DNA from: Syntrophobacteraceae bacterium
GTDB taxonomy: Bacteria; Desulfobacterota; Syntrophobacteria; Syntrophobacterales; Syntrophobacteraceae
NCBI GenBank assembly: GCA_031292215.1
Contig: JARLHO010000139.1
Location: 1-64,000 of the forward strand
Reading direction: 5' to 3'
Length of the DNA: 64,000 nt
Numbering within the stretch: the first letter of the stretch is position 1; the number at the start of each line of letters is the position of its first letter. This document shows positions 34,821 to 48,060 of the stretch, one piece after another. Position numbers and translations under genes: made by a program. A model generated the notes under the pieces. It ran no database searches. It had not been told where the DNA came from and saw only the letters and a list, made by a program, of their open reading frames with translations.

Positions 34821-35561
34821 CTACTTGCCAGAGGCCACAATTGGCTGATACAAAGGGCTGCTGCAAGGTTCAAACCCCGCTGGCCAGGGCGCAACCAGAC
34901 GGCAAAGTAATCTGAGTTGTAAGGGTGCCTGCCTATTAACTTGTTCGACCTTCATCGTGATCGTTTGCGGATCACAAAGCGAGATCAGTTTATGAACGTC
35001 GTCATCGAGATAGCGTGGACAATAGCCTACGATGGTCATAGGATCAGAAGTTCGCAAAGCTAAGGCCTTAAAATCGTAGCTGTTCTGCAGGTCATGCATA
35101 ATAAAAAGCCTGCCGCCCGGGTCGAGACCATTCACTTTCTCGATGACATATTTATCAAGGTGGCTGATTCCATGGCTAAAAAATGAGATTTCGTAATTCC
35201 CATCCGCGGTCGGCGATGGGCAAGCGAACATTTCCAAGGAGTCTGTCGCACGAGCAGCTCCCGTGAGCGCAAGCATTTTTAATTGATTCTGTTCGCTCTT
35301 ATCCATTTTGAGCCAAGAGAGGAAATCGTTGTATTCCGGCCTCGTTTTCGTGAGCAATCTATTACTGAAAAGTGGAAATAACTCCTCGGACTCGTAGACT
35401 TCTTCAAGTCGCTTCATTTTAGGAAAGGGTTCAAAAATTGATGATTCAGATGCTCCCCTAGTATATGAAAATCGATATAGTTTCCCATCGAAGCTCAGCA
35501 TACCGACAGGAAGCCATTTTCTGGTACTTGGTTCCTGCCATGCCAAATACAATCTATTCAT
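34821..35561 (-). CDS. HIRAN-domain protein
   Basis: A 246-residue protein. The N-terminal segment MNRLYLAWQEPSTRKWLPVG and the central part resemble proteins that accompany HipA-like kinases. The C-terminal half carries a HIRAN-like domain (DPMTIVGYCPRYLDDDVHKL, VNRQAPLQLRLLCRL). HIRAN domains bind single-stranded DNA 3' ends in other proteins. Its start overlaps the end of the HipA-like reading by 4 bases (ATGA), so the two were co-translated. With that kinase broken, it may now be an orphan. The role is inferred. Confidence 0.72.
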   Translation of the reverse strand: MNRLYLAWQEPSTRKWLPVGMLSFDGKLYRFSYTRGASESSIFEPFPKMKRLEEVYESEELFPLFSNRLLTKTRPEYNDFLSWLKMDKSEQNQLKMLALTGAARATDSLEMFACPSPTADGNYEISFFSHGISHLDKYVIEKVNGLDPGGRLFIMHDLQNSYDFKALALRTSDPMTIVGYCPRYLDDDVHKLISLCDPQTITMKVEQVNRQAPLQLRLLCRLVAPWPAGFEPCSSPLYQPIVASGK

Positions 35562-36469
35562 CTTAATACCTCTCCCGCTTCCAGCATACGTTCCCGGTTC
35601 AATCTAAGCATCTCAAGAGCAAACCGTGTTTCCTCTGGTGAGATTAAGTCCATGCAGATCCTTTTAAAAATCGAATAATACTGAGCAACGGAGGTATCTC
35701 TAAGCTTGGCCAGCCATATCGGCGCAGCTTTGGGCCGCTTCTTGGCAGCCAGCCGGAACGCCTCAACCGTTGATATGCGCTTGCCTTCTTTATCAAAAAA
35801 TGCCGATTTCGCCCTCTTTACGTATGCTGACATGTCTCTTTGTTTGTCTCTGGTTGTGAGTCTGTCGACTCTGTTTTTGTTGTTTTCCGCTGCTCCTAAT
35901 GACGCCGCGTGATCAAACGTTGGAGCAAGGAATAGAGTTTTACCAGGCATCCAAATGATTCCCTAATTTTCGTGGTGCCGATCCTGATTTGCAATCAGCG
36001 CATCAAGCATTAGGTACCCCACAAAGATATCGAGCGCAGAGTTCAAATCTGCAGGAAAACCTTGTTGCATCGGCGGTTGTAGAGTGGGGATGCTCAGGAT
36101 TGCCAAGACATTAGTAAGCATATATTGGTTTACCCCTCTGAGTTCCTTTCGGGGATAATTTCCAACATGAACCGAGAGAAGTTCGTTCCCAAGGATTAAT
36201 CGTCCACCTGCGGGAACTACCGATCTTGTAACAACTCCGTTTATGCCGCGCCAAATGGCAAAGTGATAAGATGCATGTGGAATTTCCAACAAATTGCACA
36301 GCTCATCCGCGACTTTCTCAGTCCAGTTCTCGCCTGTATTTTCTCGTCCAACCTTGAAGAGCCGATTTGAATCAAACCAAAACTTATGCTTTGAACCTAG
36401 AGGCTCTGAGGTCTCCTGCTCGAATTCGGAAACATCAATAATATTGAATAAATTCGATACCAAGCCCAC
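35558..36469 (-). pseudogene. HipA-like kinase interrupted by one amber codon
   Basis: The reading from 36469 ends at a TAG (35965-35963) and continues in the same frame to 35558; together it is 303 codons. N-terminal features include KHKFWFDSNRLFKVG, which resembles an ATP-binding lysine segment. The catalytic block reads ANQDRHHEN, then TAG, then GIIWMPGKTLFLAPTFDHAA, matching HipA-type DRHxxN-W-G and the metal-binding Asp. The TAG falls where the family usually has Trp, so a single TGG-to-TAG change explains it. Without suppression the product lacks the metal-binding part. It is paired with the HIRAN gene. Confidence 0.78.
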
Positions 36470-36915: not shown

Positions 36916-38655
36916 TTATCTCCGTAGGGCTGGAAAATCCAGCATCGAAATAAACCTCCGGCTAAAATCGGGATGGGCCCCCAATTCCACCACCCGGATA
37001 ATGGATGCGAGGCGCTCCATATCGCGCAGCATCTCCTGGCTGCGCACGACCAGGGCGGCGCCCGAAAGAGAGGAATTTCCAACGAAGGCGACCGGCCCCG
37101 AATAGTCCTGCGGCAGCAGTCCTATCCGTTTGAGGCTTTCAGGATTCAAGTGATAGCCAAAAGATCCGGCAACCGTTATCTGCTGGAGATCCGAGACGGA
37201 GCGGCCCGCTTCCCCCAGAAGCGTTAGAATGGCGGTTATCGCCGCCCCCTTCGCGAGCTGGACCTGGCGGATGTCCTTCTGGCTAATAAAGACATTTTCC
37301 GTAAGGAAGTAGCGGTCCCCCCGCAGCCTGTCGGAAAACCGCCCCGCGCCCGTGGTAAATGCCCCGCCCGGTGCGACCGCGCCGGTGCAAAGTAGAGCCG
37401 CGACAAGATCGACCAGGCCCGATCCGCAAATGCCTATGGGGGGCAAGGCTCCAATTGTGGTAAACCGCAGTTCCCCGTCGTCGCCAACCGTTACCGAGTC
37501 AATGGCTCCCGGGACGGCCCGGCAGCCGCAGGAAATGTTCATGCCTTCAAGTGCTGGGCCCATCGCGCACGATGTTGCCACCAGCCGGTCCGGGCCCTCT
37601 ATCAAGACGATTTCCCCGTTGGTCCCGATGTCGATAAACAGGGTGCAGGGGGGGGCGGACCGGTAATCGATAGCCGTTAGGCCCGCGATGATATCCGCGC
37701 CTACATAGGCTGCGGCCCCCGGCAAGAGTACGAGCCGTCCCTGCGGGGCTATCGGAAGGCCGAAGCGTTGCGCATCCAGGACGAGGGGCTTTAAAAATGC
37801 GGGGCGAAAAGGCGCAAGGGCCAAAGACAAGGGGTTTACGCCCGCCAGGATGTGGAGCATCGTGGAATTTCCGGCAGCGCTCATCAAATAGACCTGGTCC
37901 CGGCCCAAGTTCTGGCCAAGAGTTTGGTCCAGCATCGCCCCCAGCTCTTGTATGAGGGCTAAACGCAGGACCGAGAGGCCATCTCGCTCCCTGCGGCAAT
38001 ACTCTATGCGCGTGATGACGTCGCCGCCGTAGGCCGTCTGGGGGTTTAGGGCCGAACTGCACCCGATGGTCTCTCCGGTATCCAGGTCGAACAGGCAAAG
38101 GGATAGACCCGTTGTCCCAACGTCCACTGCGGCCCCAAGGACCGGTTTGCCGTCGAATCGAACGTCGATGGCCTCGTCGCCAAAAAGGATGGCGGACGCA
38201 TGATTGCTGTTTGCGTCCCAGCCGGCGATTTTATCTAGAAGCTGCGGGTCGCGAAGCCGAAAGGGAAGGGTTTCGGCATAGGGAACGGCGCTGCTATCCT
38301 TTTCGGGCAAAACGACACGTTTTACGGGGCTCTCCAAGGCGACCTCGCGCAACCCGAAAGCGGATGCGGACTGAAGCCGCGTCCAGGAATCGCTAAGGGT
38401 AACGGCGATGTCGCCCGCGACTTTTGCCCTGCACGCCAGGCGGACCTTGTCTTCCTGCCCTTCCAGGAGTTTGCGCTCGATCTCGTCTGGCGGGCTCAAC
38501 TCGCCGTGCGCGCTCACGCGACACTTGCCGCACACCCCGCGCCCGCCGCAGGTGGACTCGGCTTTCAATCCGCTCCGCCTGATGCACGACAGAAGGGTTT
38601 CCCCCTGCTCGGCCTCTACGGAAAATTTACCGCCGTTAAAGGTTACTTTCGGCAA
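36916..38655 (-). CDS. Corrinoid activation protein, RACo-like (ferredoxin + ASKHA)
   Basis: An N-terminal 2Fe-2S ferredoxin domain (STCGGRGVCGKCRVSAHG, then RLACRAKV) is followed by a long ASKHA/DUF4445 ATPase-fold domain (AAVDVGTTGLSLCLFDLDTG, AAGNSTMLHILAG, LFIDIGTNGEIVL). This is the architecture of RACo-type reductive activators, which use ATP to return inactive Co(II) corrinoid proteins to Co(I). The TTG at 38655 with an AGGAGAG site is preferred, since the upstream gene stops at 38669. It lies divergent from hgcA. Activation of HgcA is a suggestion, not shown. Confidence 0.88.
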   Translation of the reverse strand: MPKVTFNGGKFSVEAEQGETLLSCIRRSGLKAESTCGGRGVCGKCRVSAHGELSPPDEIERKLLEGQEDKVRLACRAKVAGDIAVTLSDSWTRLQSASAFGLREVALESPVKRVVLPEKDSSAVPYAETLPFRLRDPQLLDKIAGWDANSNHASAILFGDEAIDVRFDGKPVLGAAVDVGTTGLSLCLFDLDTGETIGCSSALNPQTAYGGDVITRIEYCRRERDGLSVLRLALIQELGAMLDQTLGQNLGRDQVYLMSAAGNSTMLHILAGVNPLSLALAPFRPAFLKPLVLDAQRFGLPIAPQGRLVLLPGAAAYVGADIIAGLTAIDYRSAPPCTLFIDIGTNGEIVLIEGPDRLVATSCAMGPALEGMNISCGCRAVPGAIDSVTVGDDGELRFTTIGALPPIGICGSGLVDLVAALLCTGAVAPGGAFTTGAGRFSDRLRGDRYFLTENVFISQKDIRQVQLAKGAAITAILTLLGEAGRSVSDLQQITVAGSFGYHLNPESLKRIGLLPQDYSGPVAFVGNSSLSGAALVVRSQEMLRDMERLASIIRVVELGAHPDFSRRFISMLDFPALRR

Positions 38656-38668
38656 TGGGCTCTCCTCT

Positions 38669-39367
38669 CTAGACTCCGCCCTGGATGGAGGAAAGGGTGT
38701 CCGGGGAGCCAAAACACAGGTGAGTCAGATCGATTGTGGTAAACGGGGGAACGACGACGAAATAGTCCTCATCCCAGGGCCCTTCGAGAAGGCGCCGCAG
38801 GTACTGGTCTTTGCCCTGAAAAGTTACGAGCTCCAGCCGCAGAGTGGAGGAGATCTCGCGTAGCTCGGGCAGAAGACTCGGGATGTCGTAGGCGCCGGTG
38901 TCTATGAGGCCCAGAAATTTATAGTGTGCGAGCATTTTTCGGTAGACCCGCTCGGTTTTTTCCAGACCCATGCGCGCTACAGTCGCGTGGTATTCCTTCC
39001 AGATGTTTGCCTCCCCCTCCAGCCAGCCCCTGGTTAGGAAGTAGACTCCGCCGCCCTCAGCGCACCGCCGCTTGGCTTCCGCCGATCCAAGGAGCAAGGA
39101 GATGCAGTCGTCTACTCGCGGTATGACCAACTGGTAATCCCCCGTCTTTAACCCGGTAAGAGCCCCGCCGCAAATCCCGAATCCAAGAAGTACCCTCTCT
39201 TTGCCGTTCATCTTGTCCAGCTCTTCCTGCAGCCTCTGGCGCAGCGAACTGGTTACGAGGTGCAGCCCGGATTCGATCCATGTAAAAGGATAAGGACAGT
39301 TCGTTTCGAGTGCGGCCTTCTCAATTTCATCTCGAATAGTGTTGCATGCAAGAACTACGGTTTCCAA
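38669..39367 (-). CDS. DUF1638 protein
   Basis: A 232-residue protein starting at a TTG (39367) that follows an AAAGGGG site and gives LETVVLACNTIRDEIE as N-terminus. It contains VLLGFGICGGALTGLKTG, PRVDDCISLLLGS and FLTRGWLEGE, typical of DUF1638. That family is common beside corrinoid methyltransferase and activator genes in anaerobes and has no settled function. It is directly upstream of the RACo-like gene on the same strand, with an overlapping alternative frame, so the two are likely one operon. A longer frame opening at 39421 is less likely. Confidence 0.82.
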   Translation of the reverse strand: METVVLACNTIRDEIEKAALETNCPYPFTWIESGLHLVTSSLRQRLQEELDKMNGKERVLLGFGICGGALTGLKTGDYQLVIPRVDDCISLLLGSAEAKRRCAEGGGVYFLTRGWLEGEANIWKEYHATVARMGLEKTERVYRKMLAHYKFLGLIDTGAYDIPSLLPELREISSTLRLELVTFQGKDQYLRRLLEGPWDEDYFVVVPPFTTIDLTHLCFGSPDTLSSIQGGV

Positions 39368-39481
39368 CGGTATAGCCCCTTTGCTTCCTGATTGGCAGAT
39401 ATTGTAACCTACCTGGACCACGCGTGCAAAATAACATATCGCCGAAATGACTCTACACGCGGGCTTTTAGATTTGCATGGC

Positions 39482-39511
39482 TTGGAAAGCTTTTACATTA
39501 TAAGATATAAT
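39482..39511 (+). promoter_or_regulatory. Probable promoter of hgcAB
   Basis: TTGGAA (39482-39487) and a consensus TATAAT (39506-39511) are separated by 18 bases and face hgcA. Transcription from about 39518 would give a leader of roughly 245 bases before the GTG at 39765, unusually long. Confidence 0.5.
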
Positions 39512-39764
39512 AACGAAGTGTTTCATTGATTCTCCACCCTGCGCCGCCGACACTTCCGGACGGTGGCGGCTTCGCAAATCTTATCGCGTGAGGGACGCTC
39601 TTTTGAAAAAAATTGAAGAAAACGCTTGCTTGGAAAAGGCAGGGGAAAGCGCCGGGAGCCCTTTTACGGGACAGGCGGGTGCAAAGCCTTCCTGCTGAGC
39701 GCCCAAGCCGCTAAAGACCCGGGAGGGTCTTCCCCGTATCGAGCAGTCCTTCGTTTCAGGTTCT
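39512..39764 (+). promoter_or_regulatory. Long structured leader upstream of hgcA
   Basis: Between the putative promoter and hgcA there is no gene. A perfect 7-bp hairpin AAGACCC/GGGTCTT with GGGA loop lies at 39714-39731 and hides a Shine-Dalgarno-like GGGAGGG. Upstream is GGGTGCAAAGCC (39677-39688), which resembles part of the GEMM (cyclic di-nucleotide) riboswitch core. The rest of that motif is not evident, so the class is unassigned. Confidence 0.35.
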
Positions 39765-40790
39765 GTGGAAACAGACGCCGGCAAGGCGCCCCGTGTCGAG
39801 CCATGTTTGACTTGGCGGGACCGGCTTGGCGGCTGGAAAGTCCGGTGGTCCATTGGGCGCATGCGCTACCGGGTCGACCCCGGCCTCTACGCGCTGGGGA
39901 GCCCCGACCGGGATTCCCCGGTTTTTGCCTCCGCCAATTTCAAAATGAGCTTCGATTGCCTGCGTAAATCTTTGGGTCCCGGCAGAAGCGGTTGGATACT
40001 GGTCCTTGATACCGAGGGGATAAACGTGTGGTGCGCGGCGGGGAAGGGGACCTTCGGGACAGCCGAGCTGGTGAAAAGGATCGAATCGAGCGGGCTCGCC
40101 CGGGTGGTGAACCACAGAAAAATCATCGTCCCCCAACTTGGCGCCCCCGGGGTATGTGCCCGCGAAGTTAAAAAACTTTCCGGGTTCAAGGTGGTATTTG
40201 GCCCGGTTCGGGCCGAAGACCTTCCCCGTTTTTTGGCTTCGGGCATGAAAGCTGTGGCGGGCATGCGCATAAAGACATTTACGACCGGCGAGAGGATGTC
40301 GCTTGTCCCCGTCGAGATAGTGCATGCGATGAAGTCCTTCCTGCTGGTGCTGCCGTTCGTATTCTTTCTGAGCGGTTTTAGCGGGCGGGGAGGGTTCCTC
40401 TCTCATGCCTTAAGACTTGGCGTGGTGTCGGCTCTCGGCCTTCTGGCGGCAATAGCTGCGGGCGCGGTTATAACACCGATTCTGCTGCCCTGGCTTCCGG
40501 GAAGGGCCTTTTCGCTTAAGGGCCTCTGGCCGGGGATCGCCTTGGCGCCGGTTTTTCTCCTTTTGCGCAATGTGTTGTGGGGGCTTTCTCCGGCGGGATC
40601 CCTTGAGATTTGCGCCTGGATGCTGCTGATACCGGCCCTTTCGGCTTACCTCGCGATGAATTTTACGGGGTGCTCGACTTACACCTCGCTTTCCGGGGTA
40701 AAAAAAGAGATGAAGTGGGCTGTGCCGGCACAGATTGGCGCAGTGGGGCTGGGCGTGGTTTTCTGGGTGGCTTCGATTTTTATCGGATGA
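39765..40790 (+). CDS. hgcA: Mercury-methylation corrinoid protein HgcA
   Basis: Corrinoid-dependent membrane protein that transfers a methyl group to Hg(II). The diagnostic cap-helix motif INVWCAAGKGTF contains the cobalt-ligand Cys at residue 90 when counted from the GTG at 39765. The N-terminal corrinoid domain is followed by about five transmembrane segments from residue 185 (for example FLLVLPFVFFLSG, LGVVSALGLLAAIAAGAVIT), matching HgcA topology. The frame upstream of the GTG (SFVSGSVETDAG) also looks HgcA-like to me but has no usual start before the stop at 39696. hgcB follows 7 bases after the stop. Function from family knowledge. Confidence 0.95.
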   Translation: METDAGKAPRVEPCLTWRDRLGGWKVRWSIGRMRYRVDPGLYALGSPDRDSPVFASANFKMSFDCLRKSLGPGRSGWILVLDTEGINVWCAAGKGTFGTAELVKRIESSGLARVVNHRKIIVPQLGAPGVCAREVKKLSGFKVVFGPVRAEDLPRFLASGMKAVAGMRIKTFTTGERMSLVPVEIVHAMKSFLLVLPFVFFLSGFSGRGGFLSHALRLGVVSALGLLAAIAAGAVITPILLPWLPGRAFSLKGLWPGIALAPVFLLLRNVLWGLSPAGSLEICAWMLLIPALSAYLAMNFTGCSTYTSLSGVKKEMKWAVPAQIGAVGLGVVFWVASIFIG

Positions 40791-40797
40791 GGTTTTT

Positions 40798-41142
40798 ATG
40801 GGTAAACTGGTGTATCTAAAAAATGTGGCGACCCTGCAACTAAACGTTGGGGCCTGTTCCGGGTGCGGGATGTGCGCTGTGGTCTGCCCCCGGGGAGTTT
40901 TGGAGATAGCGGGCGGGCATGCCCGGATTTTCGACAGGGACTCCTGTATCGAGTGCGGTGCGTGCGCCCTCAATTGCCCCGAGGACGCTCTCACGGTTCG
41001 GACCGGTGTCGGATGCGCGTCCGCTGTGATATACAGCTCACTGGGCTTGAATTCCGGCTGCTGCTGTTCCATCGACCAATATGAAGCAAATGGGAAAAAT
41101 TCCGCGGGGAAAAGTTCTGCGGGAAAAGGAGAATGCTGCTGA
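40798..41142 (+). CDS. hgcB: Mercury-methylation ferredoxin HgcB
   Basis: A 114-residue ferredoxin with two CxxCxxCxxxCP motifs (CSGCGMCAVVCP and CIECGACALNCP), binding two 4Fe-4S clusters, and further cysteines near GVGCASAV and CCCS. The protein ends in a vicinal CC pair, as in characterised HgcB, proposed to pass Hg(II) to HgcA. It is placed 7 bases after hgcA with an ATG at 40798. HgcB supplies electrons to the HgcA corrinoid. The C-terminal linker has a GKNSAGKSSAGK repeat. The hgcAB pairing makes the identification firm. Confidence 0.95.
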   Translation: MGKLVYLKNVATLQLNVGACSGCGMCAVVCPRGVLEIAGGHARIFDRDSCIECGACALNCPEDALTVRTGVGCASAVIYSSLGLNSGCCCSIDQYEANGKNSAGKSSAGKGECC

Positions 41143-41143
41143 T

Positions 41144-41458
41144 ATGAAACTTATCGAAATATTTGAAAACGGATTTTCGGATCTTAACTTCAGGAATTTT
41201 CTCGTCCACGACTCGCCCTATTTTAAGATACTCAATTTCAACTTTAAAGCCGGGCAGGAGCTTCCGGTACATTCACACGACCTGGATGGGCAGGTGAGTA
41301 TCGTGATTCTGGAAGGTGAGGGGGAGTTTGTAGGAGAAAACGGCGCCGGCTTGCCCGCAAAGCCCGGGAGCGTGCTGGTTTCAGACATTAGCGAACCCCA
41401 CGGCCTAAAAGCCTTGACCGACATGCGAGCGCTAGTCACAATCGCCCCGCCGATTTGA
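41144..41458 (+). CDS. Small cupin-domain protein
   Basis: A 104-residue single-domain cupin starting at an ATG one base after the hgcB stop, with AAAGGAG nine bases upstream. Cupin features are HSHDLDGQVSIVILEGEGEF (two His of motif 1) and KPGSVLVSDISEPHGLKAL (motif 2 with His). It may bind a metal or small ligand. Position implies co-transcription with hgcAB. Whether it matters for mercury or is a bystander is unknown. Confidence 0.85.
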   Translation: MKLIEIFENGFSDLNFRNFLVHDSPYFKILNFNFKAGQELPVHSHDLDGQVSIVILEGEGEFVGENGAGLPAKPGSVLVSDISEPHGLKALTDMRALVTIAPPI

Positions 41459-41937: not shown

Positions 41938-42172
41938 AATTTTTTCAAAAAACATCCTGAACCGATCGACATCGACGCAAAGGTCCTTCGACTGATTGAG
42001 GCAAATCCTTATCACCCATCGCTTCGGCTACACCCTTTATCTGGAAAATTATCCGGTTTGCATGCAGTGTCCCTATCCCTCAGTTACCAGGATCACCCTG
42101 GAGATGATCGTCGAAGAGCATGAAATCATCCTGGTTAACGTGGGTGATTACGATACCGTCTACAAGGCTTAG
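41938..42172 (+). pseudogene. RelE-family toxin, N-truncated and frameshifted
   Basis: The first frame reads FFKKHPEPIDIDAKVLRLIE then PYHPSLRLHPLSGKLSG and LHAVSLSLSY, the RelE/YoeB-like core. It is lost at 42088, where one extra C shifts the frame. The remaining RITLEMIVEEHEIILVNVGD YDTVYKA reads in the next frame to TAG at 42170-42172. No start codon precedes the first part, so the N-terminus is also missing. It is inactive as read. Confidence 0.8.
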
Positions 42173-42326
42173 AGAAAACCGGAGAACGGTCCCCCATGGT
42201 CTCCGTGATGGGGTAACCTTTTGGGGCTACCGGGCAGGTCCTGGACTTCGTGGCCAATGAGGTTTGACACGACCGACCGCATCTCATTTCCGCCAAGCGG
42301 GCCGCATTTTGATGTTTTACGAATCC

Positions 42327-42354
42327 TTGACAATGATATCGATAGTGATACTAT
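42327..42354 (+). promoter_or_regulatory. Promoter of hicAB with near-palindromic operator
   Basis: TTGACA (42327-42332), a 16-base spacer and TACTAT (42349-42354) lie six bases before the hicA ATG at 42361, so the transcript is predicted to be leaderless. An imperfect inverted repeat (TATCGATAGT at 42337 with ACTATTACGATA) overlaps the -10 element and may be the HicB operator. Confidence 0.6.
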
Positions 42355-42360
42355 TACGAT

Positions 42361-42621
42361 ATGGGAAGAGTTGAAGACATCCTTGAAGAAATGGCGCGCA
42401 ACCCGGCAGATATTCGTTTTACCGATTTGTGCAGGGTTTGCGAGCACTATTTCGGCAAGCCGCGTCAGGAAGGTACTGGCCATAGAGTGTATAAGACGCC
42501 GTGGCAGGGCGATCCACGGGTAAACATACAAAACAGGAAAGGAAAGGCCAGAGCGTACCAGGTGAGGCAGGTGCTTAAGGCTGTCGAGAGGTTAAGATTG
42601 GAAAATGCCATTGAAAAATGA
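42361..42621 (+). CDS. hicA: HicA-family toxin
   Basis: An 86-residue YcfA/HicA-type mRNA interferase. Family features are a short helix with DILEEMARNPADIRF, the GTGHRVYKTP strand region with the conserved His in GHRVY, and a VRQVLKAVERL helix. The ATG is the first codon after the -10 element, suggesting leaderless translation. It overlaps hicB by 17 bases. The toxin and its antitoxin both look intact. Confidence 0.85.
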   Translation: MGRVEDILEEMARNPADIRFTDLCRVCEHYFGKPRQEGTGHRVYKTPWQGDPRVNIQNRKGKARAYQVRQVLKAVERLRLENAIEK

Positions 42622-42934
42622 TCGTTACACTTACCGTGTTATGTGGTCCGATGAAGATAAGGAGCACTTGGGCTTGTGTGCGGAATTCCCTGGCCTGAGC
42701 TGGTTGGCACGCACTCCTGAGGCTGCTCTGCGAGGCATCCGCAAGGTGGTTGCAGAGGTCGTCAAGGACATGGAGGAAAACCATGAACCCCTGCCGGAGC
42801 CGATTTCTTCCAAACAGTTCAGCGGTAAATTCGTGGTTCGTGTCCCTCCTGAAGTTCATCGCAAACTGGCGGTACAGGCTGCCGAGGCTGGGGTGAGCCT
42901 GAACCGGCTTGTCAGTTCGAAACTGGCGCAGTAG
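42605..42934 (+). CDS. hicB: HicB-family antitoxin
   Basis: A 109-residue antitoxin with an N-terminal partial RNase H-like fold (YTYRVMWSDEDKEHLGLCAE, FPGLSWLARTPEAALRGIRK) and a C-terminal ribbon-helix-helix DNA-binding part (GKFVVRVPPEVHRKLAVQAA). It neutralises HicA and represses the operon in the family. Its start lies within the end of hicA, which favours coupled translation. Confidence 0.88.
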   Translation: MPLKNDRYTYRVMWSDEDKEHLGLCAEFPGLSWLARTPEAALRGIRKVVAEVVKDMEENHEPLPEPISSKQFSGKFVVRVPPEVHRKLAVQAAEAGVSLNRLVSSKLAQ

Positions 42935-43043
42935 CCCACCGAGGTGAAAAAAGATGAAGGTCGGAATAATTAAAAGCCAACTATCCTCTCGATTATGGGG
43001 TAACCTGCGGGAGGGCCATCCGGCATGGCGCCAAGCCCGGATT

Positions 43044-43340
43044 TTAGCATACAGATGCTATGCAATCTATACATCGCGTCAGGTCGGCTTGGTGATAAGC
43101 CTCCCACAGGTCGAGAGCGTTCTGGAGATTCAACCACATCTGTGGGCTTGTATTTGTGAACTTGCCAAGCCGCAAAGCCACGTCGGCGCTTATGCCCCGT
43201 TTTCCGTTTACAATCTCGTTTATGGTTCTTCGATGGACTTCGAGCCTGTCTGCCAGCGTCTGTTGGGTCAGGCCAAACTCCAGTAAGATGTCTTCCCTTA
43301 TAAATTCACCTGGATGTATCGGTTCGTGCTTCGGGAGCAT
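43044..43340 (-). CDS. higA: HigA-family antitoxin
   Basis: A 98-residue XRE helix-turn-helix antitoxin. The HigA signature HPGEFIREDILLEFGLTQQTLA is followed by the recognition helix region VHRRTINEIVNGKRGISADV. The best start is the Met at 43340, with IHPGEFI close behind it as in the family. In higBA the toxin precedes, as here, but the toxin is broken. It may now act only as a repressor. Confidence 0.88.
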   Translation of the reverse strand: MLPKHEPIHPGEFIREDILLEFGLTQQTLADRLEVHRRTINEIVNGKRGISADVALRLGKFTNTSPQMWLNLQNALDLWEAYHQADLTRCIDCIASVC

Positions 43341-43353
43341 CCTGAATCTCCTC

Positions 43354-43638
43354 TTATCGATGCTAGTCCTCAAAAAGAACATCCTCGGCTCTATCTCCCG
43401 ACCATTCGAAAGAGATACGCCACTGTTCGCTTATCCAAATCGAATATCGCATTGGACTGTGTCCCTGAAGTGCGTGCAGTTTATTCGATGGCGGGAAATA
43501 AAGGTCCTCTATCCTTGTAGCCGCCTCAAGCTGTTGCAAGTTTCCGTCTGGCTCGGTTATAAATTGACTGGTCCACTCGCCCAACCTTTTCTCTATCAAA
43601 AATTCGCTTGGTTGTACGGTCTTTGAAGAACCAGTCAT
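43354..43638 (-). pseudogene. HigB toxin with two compensating frameshifts and an amber
   Basis: The open frame from the ATG at 43638 is HigB-like only from QQLEAATRIEDLYFPPSNKL onward (LHALQG, YSIWISEQWRISFEW). The typical FFKDRTTKRIF followed by RARRKL is present in another frame between about 43630 and 43537. One base has therefore been lost just after the start and one gained at 43537, scrambling about 30 residues. The C-terminal DYH motif is also cut: TAG (43365-43363) replaces Tyr, with CAT CGA TAA following. The product is probably inactive. Confidence 0.75.
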
Positions 43639-43828
43639 CCTTTTATCTTCCTTTTGCGTGCTACATTGTAACGCACCATGTAACATAAATTAATAAATGA
43701 CTAAAGCCCGGTATCGTCGCGATCATGGAGTACGCACCAGGCATGAGCTTTGGCGCCTGCTTTCGGTCTGAACCCTGCTGAGTGTGGCGGCGGGCAACGT
43801 GGAGACCATGTTATGTGGAGACTGGCCG

Positions 43829-43857
43829 TTGACACGAAATTCGTGCGGCGCTAGAAT
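43829..43857 (+). promoter_or_regulatory. vapBC promoter containing a 13-bp palindrome
   Basis: TTGACA (43829-43834), a 17-base spacer and TAGAAT (43852-43857) form a strong sigma70-type promoter. CACGAAATTCGTG (43833-43845), a palindrome around one central base, lies between the boxes and is a likely VapB operator. The vapB ATG at 43864 is six bases after the -10 box, predicting a leaderless mRNA. Confidence 0.75.
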
Positions 43858-43863
43858 AGTGTT

Positions 43864-44094
43864 ATGAAAAATGTCACCATTACCCTTGAGGAAGAAGTCG
43901 CGCGGTGGGCTCGTCTTCGTGCTGCTGAGCGCGATACGAGCGTTTCTCGTCTTGTCGGTGAAATGCTGCGGGAGAAGATGATGGAGGAGCAGGCTTACGA
44001 GACGGCGATGCAGGTTTATCTTTCCCGGCCCCCAAAGCAATTGAAAGAGCCCGATCGGACGTATCCTTTACGCGGCGAACTCCATGAGCGATAG
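43864..44094 (+). CDS. vapB: VapB-type ribbon-helix-helix antitoxin
   Basis: A 76-residue antitoxin. The N-terminus MKNVTITLEEEVARWARLRA and the following SVSRLVGEMLREKM helix fit the ribbon-helix-helix fold. The C-terminal tail would wrap the toxin. It overlaps vapC by 11 bases and is controlled by the palindromic promoter just upstream. The pair appears intact. Confidence 0.85.
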   Translation: MKNVTITLEEEVARWARLRAAERDTSVSRLVGEMLREKMMEEQAYETAMQVYLSRPPKQLKEPDRTYPLRGELHER

Positions 44095-44536
44095 AGTTTT
44101 TGTCGATACAAACGTGCTGGTCTATAGCAGGGACAGTTCTGAACCTGTCAAACAGGCCAAAGCCTCCGAGTGGATGACACACCTCTGGAAGTCCAGAACG
44201 GGGCGATTAAGTTTTCAAGTGCTGCAGGAGTTTTATGTTACGGTTACTGCCAAGCTGAAACCGGGCCTTGATATCGACACGGCCCGCAGTGATGTGCGCC
44301 TGCTTCTTGCCTGGAAACCTGTTTTGACCGATCGGCAAATTCTCGAGAAAGCCTGGTTCATTCAGGATCGGCACGGGTTTTCCTGGTGGGACTCGATGAT
44401 TGTTGCCGCAGCCCTGGTGTCTTCCTGTCAATATCTTCTTTCGGAAGATCTTCAAGACAATTTTGAACTCGGCGGGCTGAGAGTCATCGGCCCGTTTGCG
44501 GTCCAACCTCCCTCGATGGGCCAGGGCCTCTTGTGA
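44084..44536 (+). CDS. vapC: VapC-type PIN-domain ribonuclease toxin
   Basis: A 150-residue PIN-domain protein with the acidic metal-binding residues in FVDTNVLVYSRD (first Asp), QVLQEFYVTV (Glu), and SWWDSMIVAAAL plus LLSEDLQDN (later Asp residues). PIN toxins cleave RNA. The length fits the family and no break is seen. It is translated with vapB (11-base overlap). Confidence 0.92.
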   Translation: MSDRVFVDTNVLVYSRDSSEPVKQAKASEWMTHLWKSRTGRLSFQVLQEFYVTVTAKLKPGLDIDTARSDVRLLLAWKPVLTDRQILEKAWFIQDRHGFSWWDSMIVAAALVSSCQYLLSEDLQDNFELGGLRVIGPFAVQPPSMGQGLL

Positions 44537-44828
44537 CATGCAAGCGCAATGTCCAAGCATGCGGTCGCCGGTGTGCGGCCCTTAAGAGCACCATGTGCTT
44601 TCCCGGATTAAATAGCCGGTATCCTCCAGGTCATTGAGAAATCCGGGGCGGGTGTTCCCACCAAAACTCAGGTGGCCCGGGCGAATAAGCGCATCATTTT
44701 TGACGACTATCCCACCCTTTCCATACCTTCCTGCGGCACGACCGTTTGTCCGGCGGACGCCCGCCGGTTGACCCCAACCGGGTTCCCGGCTACATTGGCA
44801 TCATGATGATTAGCTTAAGGACATCAAG
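44537..44828. other. Gap without a gene
   Basis: Nothing convincing is encoded here. Short readings recall scattered debris but match no family that I can name. A ribosome-site-like AAGGA precedes the next ATG at 44829. Confidence 0.5.
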
Positions 44829-45095
44829 ATGCGCACTACATTGACCATTGATGACGAAATTGCAATGTCGCTCAAGGATTGGGCTCATCGTAGCGGCAGA
44901 CCCTTCAGCCAGGTGGTTAACGACGCATTACGAAAGGGAATGCATGCGCTCGAAAATCCGGAAGCAAAGCCTTACCGGTTATCGCCTGCCTCCATGGGAG
45001 CGGTACGCCCCGGGATCAACCTGGAAAAGGCGTTGAGTCTGAGCGATGAGTTGGAAAATGGGGCAGTCGCTTTCAAGCTGGAAATGGGGAAGTGA
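44829..45095 (+). CDS. Second VapB-type antitoxin
   Basis: An 88-residue protein beginning MRTTLTIDDEIAMSLKDWAH, with SGRPFSQVVNDALRKG as the second helix of a ribbon-helix-helix fold, and a C-terminal toxin-binding tail. An AAGGA site precedes the ATG. Its natural partner vapC begins at the overlap with its stop (GTGA), but only a fragment of that toxin remains. It is an orphan antitoxin. Confidence 0.82.
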   Translation: MRTTLTIDDEIAMSLKDWAHRSGRPFSQVVNDALRKGMHALENPEAKPYRLSPASMGAVRPGINLEKALSLSDELENGAVAFKLEMGK

Positions 45096-45178
45096 TTCTG
45101 GTGGATGTGAATCTGCTGCTCGGTTTGTGCGCCTCTTCTCTGAAAGACGTGCTAGATATCAATGATTGCCCTAAATGA
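45092..45178 (+). pseudogene. Truncated vapC (first ~12 codons only)
   Basis: Starting at the GTG overlapping the antitoxin stop, the reading VILVDVNLLLGL is a PIN-domain N-terminus with the first metal-binding Asp. Similarity is lost within a few codons and the frame ends at 45178. On the opposite strand, the same DNA from 45152 belongs to a TPR-protein tail, which marks a rearrangement junction. Confidence 0.75.
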
Positions 45179-45289
45179 CTTATCCTCCCACAGGGTCTGG
45201 AAGTCCTCCTCCTTTGCTGCTATCGTTTTGAAACTGGAATCGAGTGTAACAGCTTCCTTTAATGCGGTCAGTGCGAGTCTTTTTTTCCC
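45152..45289 (-). pseudogene. C-terminal tail of a TPR-repeat protein
   Basis: Reading leftward, KKRLALTALKEAVTLDSSFK then KEEDFQTLWEDKSFRAIIDI runs to a TAG at 45154-45152. This is the common ending of TPR proteins (an AL-LDP-like helix, then a DF-L-ED-FR block). No start or upstream repeats are present: a TAA in the same frame lies upstream within about 60 bases. It is debris joined to the truncated vapC. Confidence 0.55.
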
Positions 45290-45336
45290 GAGTGGCTTCC
45301 CTCTTCCACGTTAAACCTTTTCCACAGCGACCTTCC

Positions 45337-45741
45337 TTAGCGGCTTTTTCCCATCTGCTCATAGCTCAGCTCGTATCGCGACAGTTTGTTGTGCCGCCAA
45401 ACGATGTTGCCCTGCCAATCGAACATCGGCGCCTGTTTGACATAGCCGCCCTCGTCCCGCTCCCTGTGGAAGCTGCCTGCCACCACCAGTTTCAACTGGC
45501 CCGACGGGTTGTGGTTGCGCAGGAACCGGCCGATTGCCGTCCTGGCGGCGGTCAAGATGGCCTCAATCAGGGTCCTTACATCGGAAAGGGATGGGGCAGC
45601 GGTTCGCACATTTCGAAGGGGTAACGTGCCCCGCTCGGTTCTCTCGTAGGCAAGCACATCCGGTCCAAAGCCGGAATCGTAGGGGGAAAGAGCAATGGTC
45701 AGGCTTTTGAGCGCTTTGCCGGAAGGTTCAAAAGACTGCAT
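45337..45741 (-). CDS. Hypothetical protein
   Basis: A 134-residue reading that I do not recognise. It has a helical segment (LSDVRTLIEAILTAARTAIG) and a C-terminal beta-like part (FDWQGNIVWRHNKLSRYELS). The upstream hypothetical frame overlaps it by 43 bases in another phase. The two could be separate genes or halves of one gene split by a frameshift. Codon composition fits the surroundings. Confidence 0.5.
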   Translation of the reverse strand: MQSFEPSGKALKSLTIALSPYDSGFGPDVLAYERTERGTLPLRNVRTAAPSLSDVRTLIEAILTAARTAIGRFLRNHNPSGQLKLVVAGSFHRERDEGGYVKQAPMFDWQGNIVWRHNKLSRYELSYEQMGKSR

Positions 45742-46028
45742 AGTCGGATCAATAGCTCGTATGTCATGAGCGCGGCCCGGGCCTCATTTCGAATCATTCC
45801 CTCAAGGCCGTGCAAGGCTGCGTCAATATCGAACGAATCCTCTCCCGCATCCAGGGCCATATCGGCGATGTAAGGTCCGATCGGGTTCTTTGTTGCGTGC
45901 AAGGTATCGTCCATGATGGTGCTTTCGAAAGGAAGAGCAACGTGGTAAATCGAGGCCAAAAGCTTGTAGGGGCAGTGAATGCCCTGAAAGAAGCAGACTC
46001 TTTTGAGGGTTGCAAGCAGTGTGGCCAA
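45699..46028 (-). CDS. Hypothetical protein, possibly N-terminal half of the next
   Basis: A 109-residue reading with a hydrophobic N-terminal segment and an acidic middle (DMALDAGEDSFDIDAALHGL), ending in MTYELLIRLCSLLN. It is unrecognised. Its 3' end runs into the 134-residue reading in a different phase, so a frameshifted single gene is possible. It has no known motif. Confidence 0.45.
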   Translation of the reverse strand: MATLLATLKRVCFFQGIHCPYKLLASIYHVALPFESTIMDDTLHATKNPIGPYIADMALDAGEDSFDIDAALHGLEGMIRNEARAALMTYELLIRLCSLLNLPAKRSKA

Positions 46029-46270: not shown

Positions 46271-47149
46271 TCAAAGAGCCCGCATCCATTCGGGTTTAAG
46301 GGCGGTTTCGCCCCGTAGCGCGGTATCGAGCATGGCTATCGCCTTAGCCTTGTCCGCCGGCATTTTTACCCGTAGCGGAAGGTAATTGGACGCATGGTTG
46401 GCAATGAAGATGCCGCGCGTCATGTTGGTGTGGACAAGCATCTCCCGCAGCTCTTCCAGCATCTCGCGGGGGTTTGGAAGTTCGAACCGGCCGGCTTTTA
46501 CCTGCTCTTCGAGCTCGGTGCCAGGGTGAATCATGAGGGTAAGGACCCCGGCGTAATTGGGGTCGATTGCTGAGAGGGCCTTTCCGGTTTCGCGGGCGTG
46601 TTCAAGAGACCTCTTGGGGCCGGCAAGACCTAAAATGACCATCGTTGAAAGCTTCATGCCGGCGGCCCGCACTTTTCGTCCCGCCTCAATCATGCGCTCG
46701 GGCGTCTGTTTTTTCCCGATGTCTTGTAGCACCTGCGCATCGCCGCTTTCGAGGCCGAAATAAACGATCCCCAACCCAAGCTCTCGAAGGGTTGCCAGTT
46801 CCTCGGCGGTTTTCCCGAGGATCCCCCTGGAGTCGCCGTAGGTCCCGACCCGTTGAACCCAGGGCATCTTTTCCCGGATTCGCGACAATATCCTCACGAG
46901 CCTTTGCTGGGGTATGACCAGGGCGTCGCCGTCGATTAAAAAAACCCTTCGGATAAAATCGAAATTTTTGGCAGCATAATCGATGTCCGCATCGATTGTC
47001 GCATCGTCTTTTATGGTAAAACGCTTGTCCTTGTACGACCCGCAAAAGGTGCACAAGTTGTGTGAGCATCCAAGAGTTACCTGGAGCAATATGCTGTCCG
47101 CTTCGCTGGGAGGGCGGATAATGAAGCCCTCGTAGTGCATTCCGTCCAT
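46271..47149 (-). CDS. Radical SAM protein
   Basis: A 292-residue radical SAM enzyme. The cluster motif is CSHNLCTFCG (cysteines spaced C-x4-C-x2-C) and FGLESGDAQVL lies in the barrel as in Elp3/HemN-like members. The ATG at 47149 is chosen because the family-like part begins there; a longer frame to 47335 adds an unlikely basic extension. The reaction is unknown. It diverges from the glycosyltransferase gene. The unusual C-x4-C spacing is worth noting. Confidence 0.87.
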   Translation of the reverse strand: MDGMHYEGFIIRPPSEADSILLQVTLGCSHNLCTFCGSYKDKRFTIKDDATIDADIDYAAKNFDFIRRVFLIDGDALVIPQQRLVRILSRIREKMPWVQRVGTYGDSRGILGKTAEELATLRELGLGIVYFGLESGDAQVLQDIGKKQTPERMIEAGRKVRAAGMKLSTMVILGLAGPKRSLEHARETGKALSAIDPNYAGVLTLMIHPGTELEEQVKAGRFELPNPREMLEELREMLVHTNMTRGIFIANHASNYLPLRVKMPADKAKAIAMLDTALRGETALKPEWMRAL

Positions 47150-47298
47150 TTTAAATCTCCGCGTGATCGGTGAGTGTAAGCTAAAAGAATATAGCCTCCT
47201 TAATGAAAATGGAATACGATCTTTTTTAAAATAGAGTCCCGAGGCAAGAAGGTTTTCTTTGCGCTCCACGCGTTTTCTTTTACGGGGAAAAATCGTTA

Positions 47299-48060
47299 AT
47301 GGATAAAATCCCTCTTTCCGTTGCGATAATCGCAAAAGACGAAGAAATAGATTTACCGGGCTGCCTGGAGAGTGTTTCGTTTGCAGCCGAAGTCGTGATC
47401 GTCGATTGCGGCAGTCGGGACCGGACAGAAGTTATCGCAAAAGAGTTTGGCGCCCGTTTTTTCGTCGAACCCTGGAAGGGGTACGGCCCTCAGAAAAACA
47501 GCGCTCTCGAAAAATGCGCCTGCGACTGGGTCCTGATACTGGATGCCGATGAGCGCATCCCCCCCGAGACGGCCGTAAAAATCGGGGAGTTGATAGCAGA
47601 CAAGGGTAGCGTCGACGCCTATTCGTTTCGGCGAAAAAACCTGTTTCACTCCAAATGGATCCACTCCACCGACTGGTGGCCAGACGAAGTCACAAGGCTT
47701 TTTAAAAGAGCGAGAGGCAGGTTTGAAGGGCTTACTCACGAAAAACTCGTAGTCGATGGCGTGACAAAAAGACTTACGTGCTGCATCGAACATTTGAGCT
47801 ACAATTCCTATTCGGAACTTTTTAAAAAACTAGACGACTACTCAACCGAACAGTCCGAGCAGATGTTTTCGGCGGGTAGACGAGCGGGACCGGCCGATGC
47901 CGTTTTCCGGGGCGCGTGGATGTTTTTTCGAAACTATTTTCTACGGCTTGGCTTTACCGCCGGCTTCGATGGCTTTGTCATATCGCTTTCGAAGGGAATG
48001 GGGACTTTTCTAAAATATGCAAAGTTGTATGAATTAAGGAATTTGCGCTCCAGGCAGTGA
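47299..48060 (+). CDS. Glycosyltransferase family 2 (LPS core type)
   Basis: A 253-residue GT-A glycosyltransferase. The nucleotide-sugar site starts with SVAIIAKDEEIDLPGCLES, followed by VIVDCGSRDRTEVIA and the DxD motif LILDADERI. WaaE/KdtX-like features (WKGYGPQKNSAL, WWPDEVTRLF) suggest addition of a glucose to the inner core of LPS. The C-terminal region has a hydrophobic segment likely to lie on the membrane. It stands alone. Confidence 0.9.
   Translation: MDKIPLSVAIIAKDEEIDLPGCLESVSFAAEVVIVDCGSRDRTEVIAKEFGARFFVEPWKGYGPQKNSALEKCACDWVLILDADERIPPETAVKIGELIADKGSVDAYSFRRKNLFHSKWIHSTDWWPDEVTRLFKRARGRFEGLTHEKLVVDGVTKRLTCCIEHLSYNSYSELFKKLDDYSTEQSEQMFSAGRRAGPADAVFRGAWMFFRNYFLRLGFTAGFDGFVISLSKGMGTFLKYAKLYELRNLRSRQ

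Follow-up and report, generated by a model that had tools for sequence, protein, structure and literature searches.

A canonical hgcAB locus of an uncultured Syntrophobacteraceae bacterium and its putative selenoprotein HgcA

Does this bacterium carry a working gene pair for the conversion of inorganic mercury to methylmercury, which is toxic, and where does its hgcA gene begin? The window analysed here is a stretch of 64,000 nucleotides from a Syntrophobacteraceae contig, in which an hgcA reading frame starting at GTG 39765 had been paired with an adjoining hgcB. In published HgcABs, HgcB reduces the corrinoid, which takes up a methyl group (in vitro, from SAM) and donates it to Hg(II); Cys93 of HgcA, and Cys73 and the terminal Cys pair of HgcB, matter to the process (PMC7305189, PMC11588087). 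The reading favoured here, at a probability of about 0.88, is that HgcA and HgcB of this locus make up a functional-looking mercury-methylation complex, with HgcA as a selenoprotein.

Identity of the gene pair

The HgcA protein scores 440.9 bits in a search with the curated NCBIfam equivalog NF040863 (cut-off 275). Scores with models of related families are far lower: 180.3 bits with the HgcAB-like fusion model (below its cut-off of 285), 75.8 bits with the AcsC-type model PRK04165 (cut-off 306), which places the protein outside the CdhD/AcsC group, and 50.4 bits with Pfam CdhD. The cap-helix motif INVWCAAGKGTF conforms to the pattern N(V/I)WCAA(A/G)KG and includes the corrinoid-ligand Cys, whose codon lies at 40032-40034 on the plus strand (motif NVWCAAGKG; residue 144 of the full-length protein, residue 90 of the GTG form). 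This Cys is invariant across 24 aligned HgcAs. Hydrophobic segments follow in the sequence, and the AlphaFold model turns them into five long C-terminal helices.

The hgcB gene (40798-41142, plus strand) adjoins hgcA and encodes 114 amino acids. Its product narrowly passes the NCBIfam model NF040864 (101.4 bits, cut-off 99) and is the sole protein of the source genome to do so. It is an intact dicluster ferredoxin, with two [4Fe-4S] motifs of the form CxxCxxCxxxCP at residues 20 and 50, Cys73 and a terminal Cys113-Cys114. Selenocysteine in HgcB was considered and rejected, as codon 73 is TGC and the TGA at the end of the gene appears to be a normal stop codon. The initial annotation had described a complete hgcAB pair between 39765 and 41142, with the cap-helix motif, Cys at residue 90, a five-segment membrane domain and an HgcB carrying both cluster motifs and the terminal Cys pair. 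Both reading frames lie where it placed them, and each of these features is borne out; the pair is real and canonical.

The HgcAB of Pseudodesulfovibrio mercurii ND132 (PMC7305189, PMC11588087; model 9a0b) shares with the present pair the corrinoid domain, the cap-helix Cys, five membrane helices, and Cys73 and the terminal Cys pair of HgcB. The large subunit of the corrinoid iron-sulphur protein, AcsC/CdhD (2ycl), shares the corrinoid-binding Rossmann domain but has neither the membrane domain nor, according to PMC7305189, the cap-helix Cys, both of which are found in HgcA. The source genome carries an AcsC-like gene as well, distinct from hgcA.

Might the pair nevertheless be a paralogue with another methylation substrate, or one that shuttles corrinoid methyl groups, mercury not being its natural substrate? 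Its role in mercury methylation is read from sequence only, which gives this alternative some room. All residues needed for methylation in ND132 are present, however, and the profile scores set HgcA apart from both AcsC and the family of HgcAB-like fusions, so the paralogue reading is very unlikely. Mercury methylation by this organism is the best inference, because all residues important in the published HgcABs have counterparts here. By analogy with those proteins, HgcB would reduce the HgcA corrinoid to Co(I), the reduced corrinoid would accept a methyl group and transfer it to Hg(II), and Cys73 and the terminal Cys pair of HgcB would handle mercury.

An hgcA frame that extends through a TGA codon

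The initial annotation began hgcA at 39765. The coding frame, however, runs 54 codons further upstream, through an in-frame TGA, to a TTG at 39603; 39765 is therefore not the hgcA start, and the earlier reading frame is a truncated hgcA. The full-length gene would occupy 39603-40790 on the plus strand (395 codons and a stop), as judged from the NCBIfam HgcA score and from relatives in which the frame stays conserved across the TGA. The TTG start itself is inferred; a Shine-Dalgarno-like GAGGGA (39590-39595, same strand) stands 7 nt before it. Further upstream is a promoter-like TTGGAA-N18-TATAAT (39482-39511, plus strand; 10 of 12 consensus matches), one of 7 such sites in a consensus scan, where shuffled versions of the region would give 0.9, a count that is not evidence of function.

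How is the region between 39603 and 39765 to be read? In alignments of the upstream DNA with that of relatives, conservation continues past GTG 39765. From the TGA to 39765, variation is greatest at the third codon position (0.525, versus 0.373 and 0.295 for the other two), and the same is seen inside hgcA. A riboswitch had been suspected here from the stretch AGGGGAAA...GGGTGCAAAGCC, but Rfam gave no match and the sequence turned out to be coding.

The TGA (39696-39698, plus strand) directly follows a TGC codon, so that a Cys31-Sec32 pair would be encoded. Among 74 non-redundant hgcA loci, the first in-frame upstream stop is a TGA situated 20-26 codons before the point equivalent to 39765 in 51, and the TGA comes directly after a Cys codon in 45. 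Other HgcAs lack a stop at this place and have Cys-Cys instead (e.g. KPPCCGPP in L023, compared with KPPCUGPP in L022); it is Cys, not TAA or TAG, that replaces the TGA in homologues. Over the 110 hgcA loci sampled across the phylum, about 43 are of the Sec form (a script gave 41; inspection by eye removed one and added three with the order Sec-Cys) and about 37 have Cys-Cys in the tail. Variants of the motif occur in L012-L014, L119, L130 and L159, with Gly-Sec or a reversed Sec-Cys in place of Cys-Sec.

Downstream of the TGA lies a putative bSECIS element. The SECIS-like hairpin (39714-39731, plus strand) starts 15 nt after the TGA and has a 7-bp stem, 39714-39720 pairing with 39725-39731, and a GGGA loop. 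The single window sequence folds into this hairpin, yet with a stability no greater than that of shuffles. Over 42 sequences, 89.7% of cells are paired, compared with 17-64% when the hairpin partner is slid along as a control. Two-sided changes number 23 against a shuffled mean of 8.7, and none of 500 shuffles reached as high a value. In a second group of relatives the hairpin is another one and lies closer to the TGA.

The source genome also has the means to decode such a codon: SelA (614 bits), SelB (362), SelD (384) and tRNA-Sec (74) all score over their cut-offs. The SelD gene (L070, G000:C53:69730-70644) has an in-frame TGA of its own and probably encodes a selenoprotein too. No SelB over the cut-off was found in the fragmented assembly of the close relative G001, despite its TGA-form hgcA; tRNA-Sec was found there, and the missing SelB is for this reason read as an assembly gap. 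Co-occurrence of Sec-form HgcA with SelB is weak evidence, because only 6 HgcA-positive genomes lack SelB; none of the 6 has the Sec form, counting L185 as Cys-Cys by eye where the script called it Sec.

Could HgcA instead be an ordinary protein begun at GTG 39765, the TGA being a true stop in a leader? The curated HgcA profile starts near this GTG, and the published structural model begins at about full-length residue 60, both as would be expected of such a protein. But upstream of 39765 both frame and residues are conserved throughout the order and outside it, the TGA keeps its position behind a Cys codon and gives way to Cys rather than to TAA or TAG, the hairpin downstream of it covaries, and the GTG has no clear Shine-Dalgarno sequence; a leader with a true stop is thus very improbable. 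The TGA after a Cys codon, the covarying hairpin, the alternation of TGA and Cys in relatives, and SelA, SelB, SelD and tRNA-Sec in the genome together argue that HgcA is a selenoprotein of 395 residues that bears a Cys-Sec pair near its N terminus.

Is such a protein new? A list in PMC13188914, after Haft & Gwadz (2023), a work also cited in PMC11588087, includes HgcA as a selenoprotein with the motif 'CU' and HgcB with 'GVGU'. The listed form (NF040863) shares with the present HgcA the family, the Cys-Sec motif and one Sec per protein, and nothing in that listing distinguishes the two. A selenoprotein HgcA with a 'CU' motif is, going by these entries, an already described kind, to which this locus adds another member.

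The N-terminal arm

A start at GTG 39765 would remove the whole Cys-Sec arm. The AlphaFold model of HgcA (mean pLDDT 81.7) has a Rossmann-type domain followed by the five long helices, at residues 235-257, 265-297, 303-325, 333-352 and 363-394. A strand is predicted at residues 51-57, and the 39765 start, at residue 55, would cut through it. Residues 1-37 are mostly of very low confidence. The modelled fold corresponds to that of the published HgcAB model 9a0b (Z of 19.2, from residue 60 on) and to that of CFeSP 2ycl (Z of 16.5; 30% identity, 122 residues). Given the low-confidence N terminus and a match to 9a0b that begins at residue 60, the Cys-Sec pair is probably carried on a flexible arm. 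The present HgcA has about 60 additional N-terminal residues, with Cys-Sec, that are absent from the ND132 model; in the published model the HgcB Cys pair likewise sits on a probably flexible arm (PMC7305189).

What might the arm do? Selenium binds mercury very strongly, and this makes the Cys-Sec arm a suspect in mercury handling. As a conjecture, it might bind or relay Hg(II) or methylmercury or have a redox role, and might act as a counterpart to the C-terminal Cys pair of HgcB. A wider proposal is that HgcAs in general have a working arm at the N terminus, with Cys-Sec or Cys-Cys, that handles mercury or redox chemistry and complements the HgcB Cys pair; this arm would have been largely overlooked, being absent from the published model and from many gene calls since translation was assumed to begin after the UGA. 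This proposal is tentative and somewhat more likely wrong than right. With selenocysteine in HgcA, annotations and expression constructs made from the standard start miss the arm, and in organisms of this kind the methylation of mercury may hinge on how much selenium is available.

Distribution and relatives

The initial annotation had regarded hgcAB as rare among bacteria. This fails in the present lineage: of 395 genomes sampled from the phylum, 114 have an hgcA over the cut-off, as do most members of the genus. The nearest named relatives are the uncultured Deltaproteobacteria MAGs DX1.bin82 (79%) and BP6.bin57 (75%). The presence of hgcAB is a marker of probable methylmercury producers, and this uncultured lineage should be listed with them.

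Mapping the Sec label onto the HgcA tree requires no fewer than 10 changes, and well-supported branches force 6 of these. The Cys label in this mapping came from a loose pattern, and the Sec label of one Bacteroidota row (L048) is probably an error. With so many label changes, the Sec and other forms have interchanged repeatedly. Genus member G007 has a diverged hgcA (L022, G007:C82:16365-17315; 51% identity) that belongs to another branch of the tree and sits elsewhere in its genome; the G007 locus that matches the window is without hgcAB. This suggests a loss of hgcAB followed by replacement through transfer.

Neighbouring genes

Do adjacent genes take part in the hgcAB system? Divergent from hgcA are a RACo-like corrinoid reactivator gene (36916-38712) and a DUF1638 gene (38669-39421), beside which no methyltransferase gene was recognised. 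They might belong to the hgcAB system as reactivators of the HgcA corrinoid: the pair is a divergent neighbour of hgcA in the source genome, G001 and G005, and RamA-like and DUF1638 proteins elsewhere reactivate B12 for methionine synthase (PMC5764234). Adjacency is patchy, however, and the pair was not retained as part of the system. The other genus members examined do not have it next to hgcA, the adjacent DUF1638 gene of G005 is fragmentary, G007 has the pair at the same locus with hgcAB absent, and in G003 the pair heads a methyltransferase operon with pterin-binding, B12-binding and UroD-type genes. A single system is unlikely. The two genes probably serve other methyltransferases; a dedicated role in HgcA reactivation is possible but unsupported.

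A small cupin gene (41144-41458) starts 2 nt after the hgcB stop codon. It is 91% identical in G001, a conservation above that of hgcA and hgcB themselves, and occurs also in genomes without an adjacent hgcAB. As an hgc gene it was rejected on finding a 92% identical copy in G009, which has no hgcA over the threshold; it is likely a passenger.

Other features of the surroundings may be mentioned. Three minus-strand ORFs at 34821-36469 resemble, by eye, pieces of a HipA-type gene. Radical SAM and family-2 glycosyltransferase genes (46274-48057) lie close to hgcAB in several members of the genus as a conserved pair, which is retained where hgcAB is absent (G009, G007). The radical SAM gene directly adjoins hgcAB or cupin genes in G003, G004, G006, G008 and G009; in the window the stretch between it and the cupin gene (42169-46028) holds a PIN-domain gene (44084-44536) along with further short ORFs that look like toxin-antitoxin genes.
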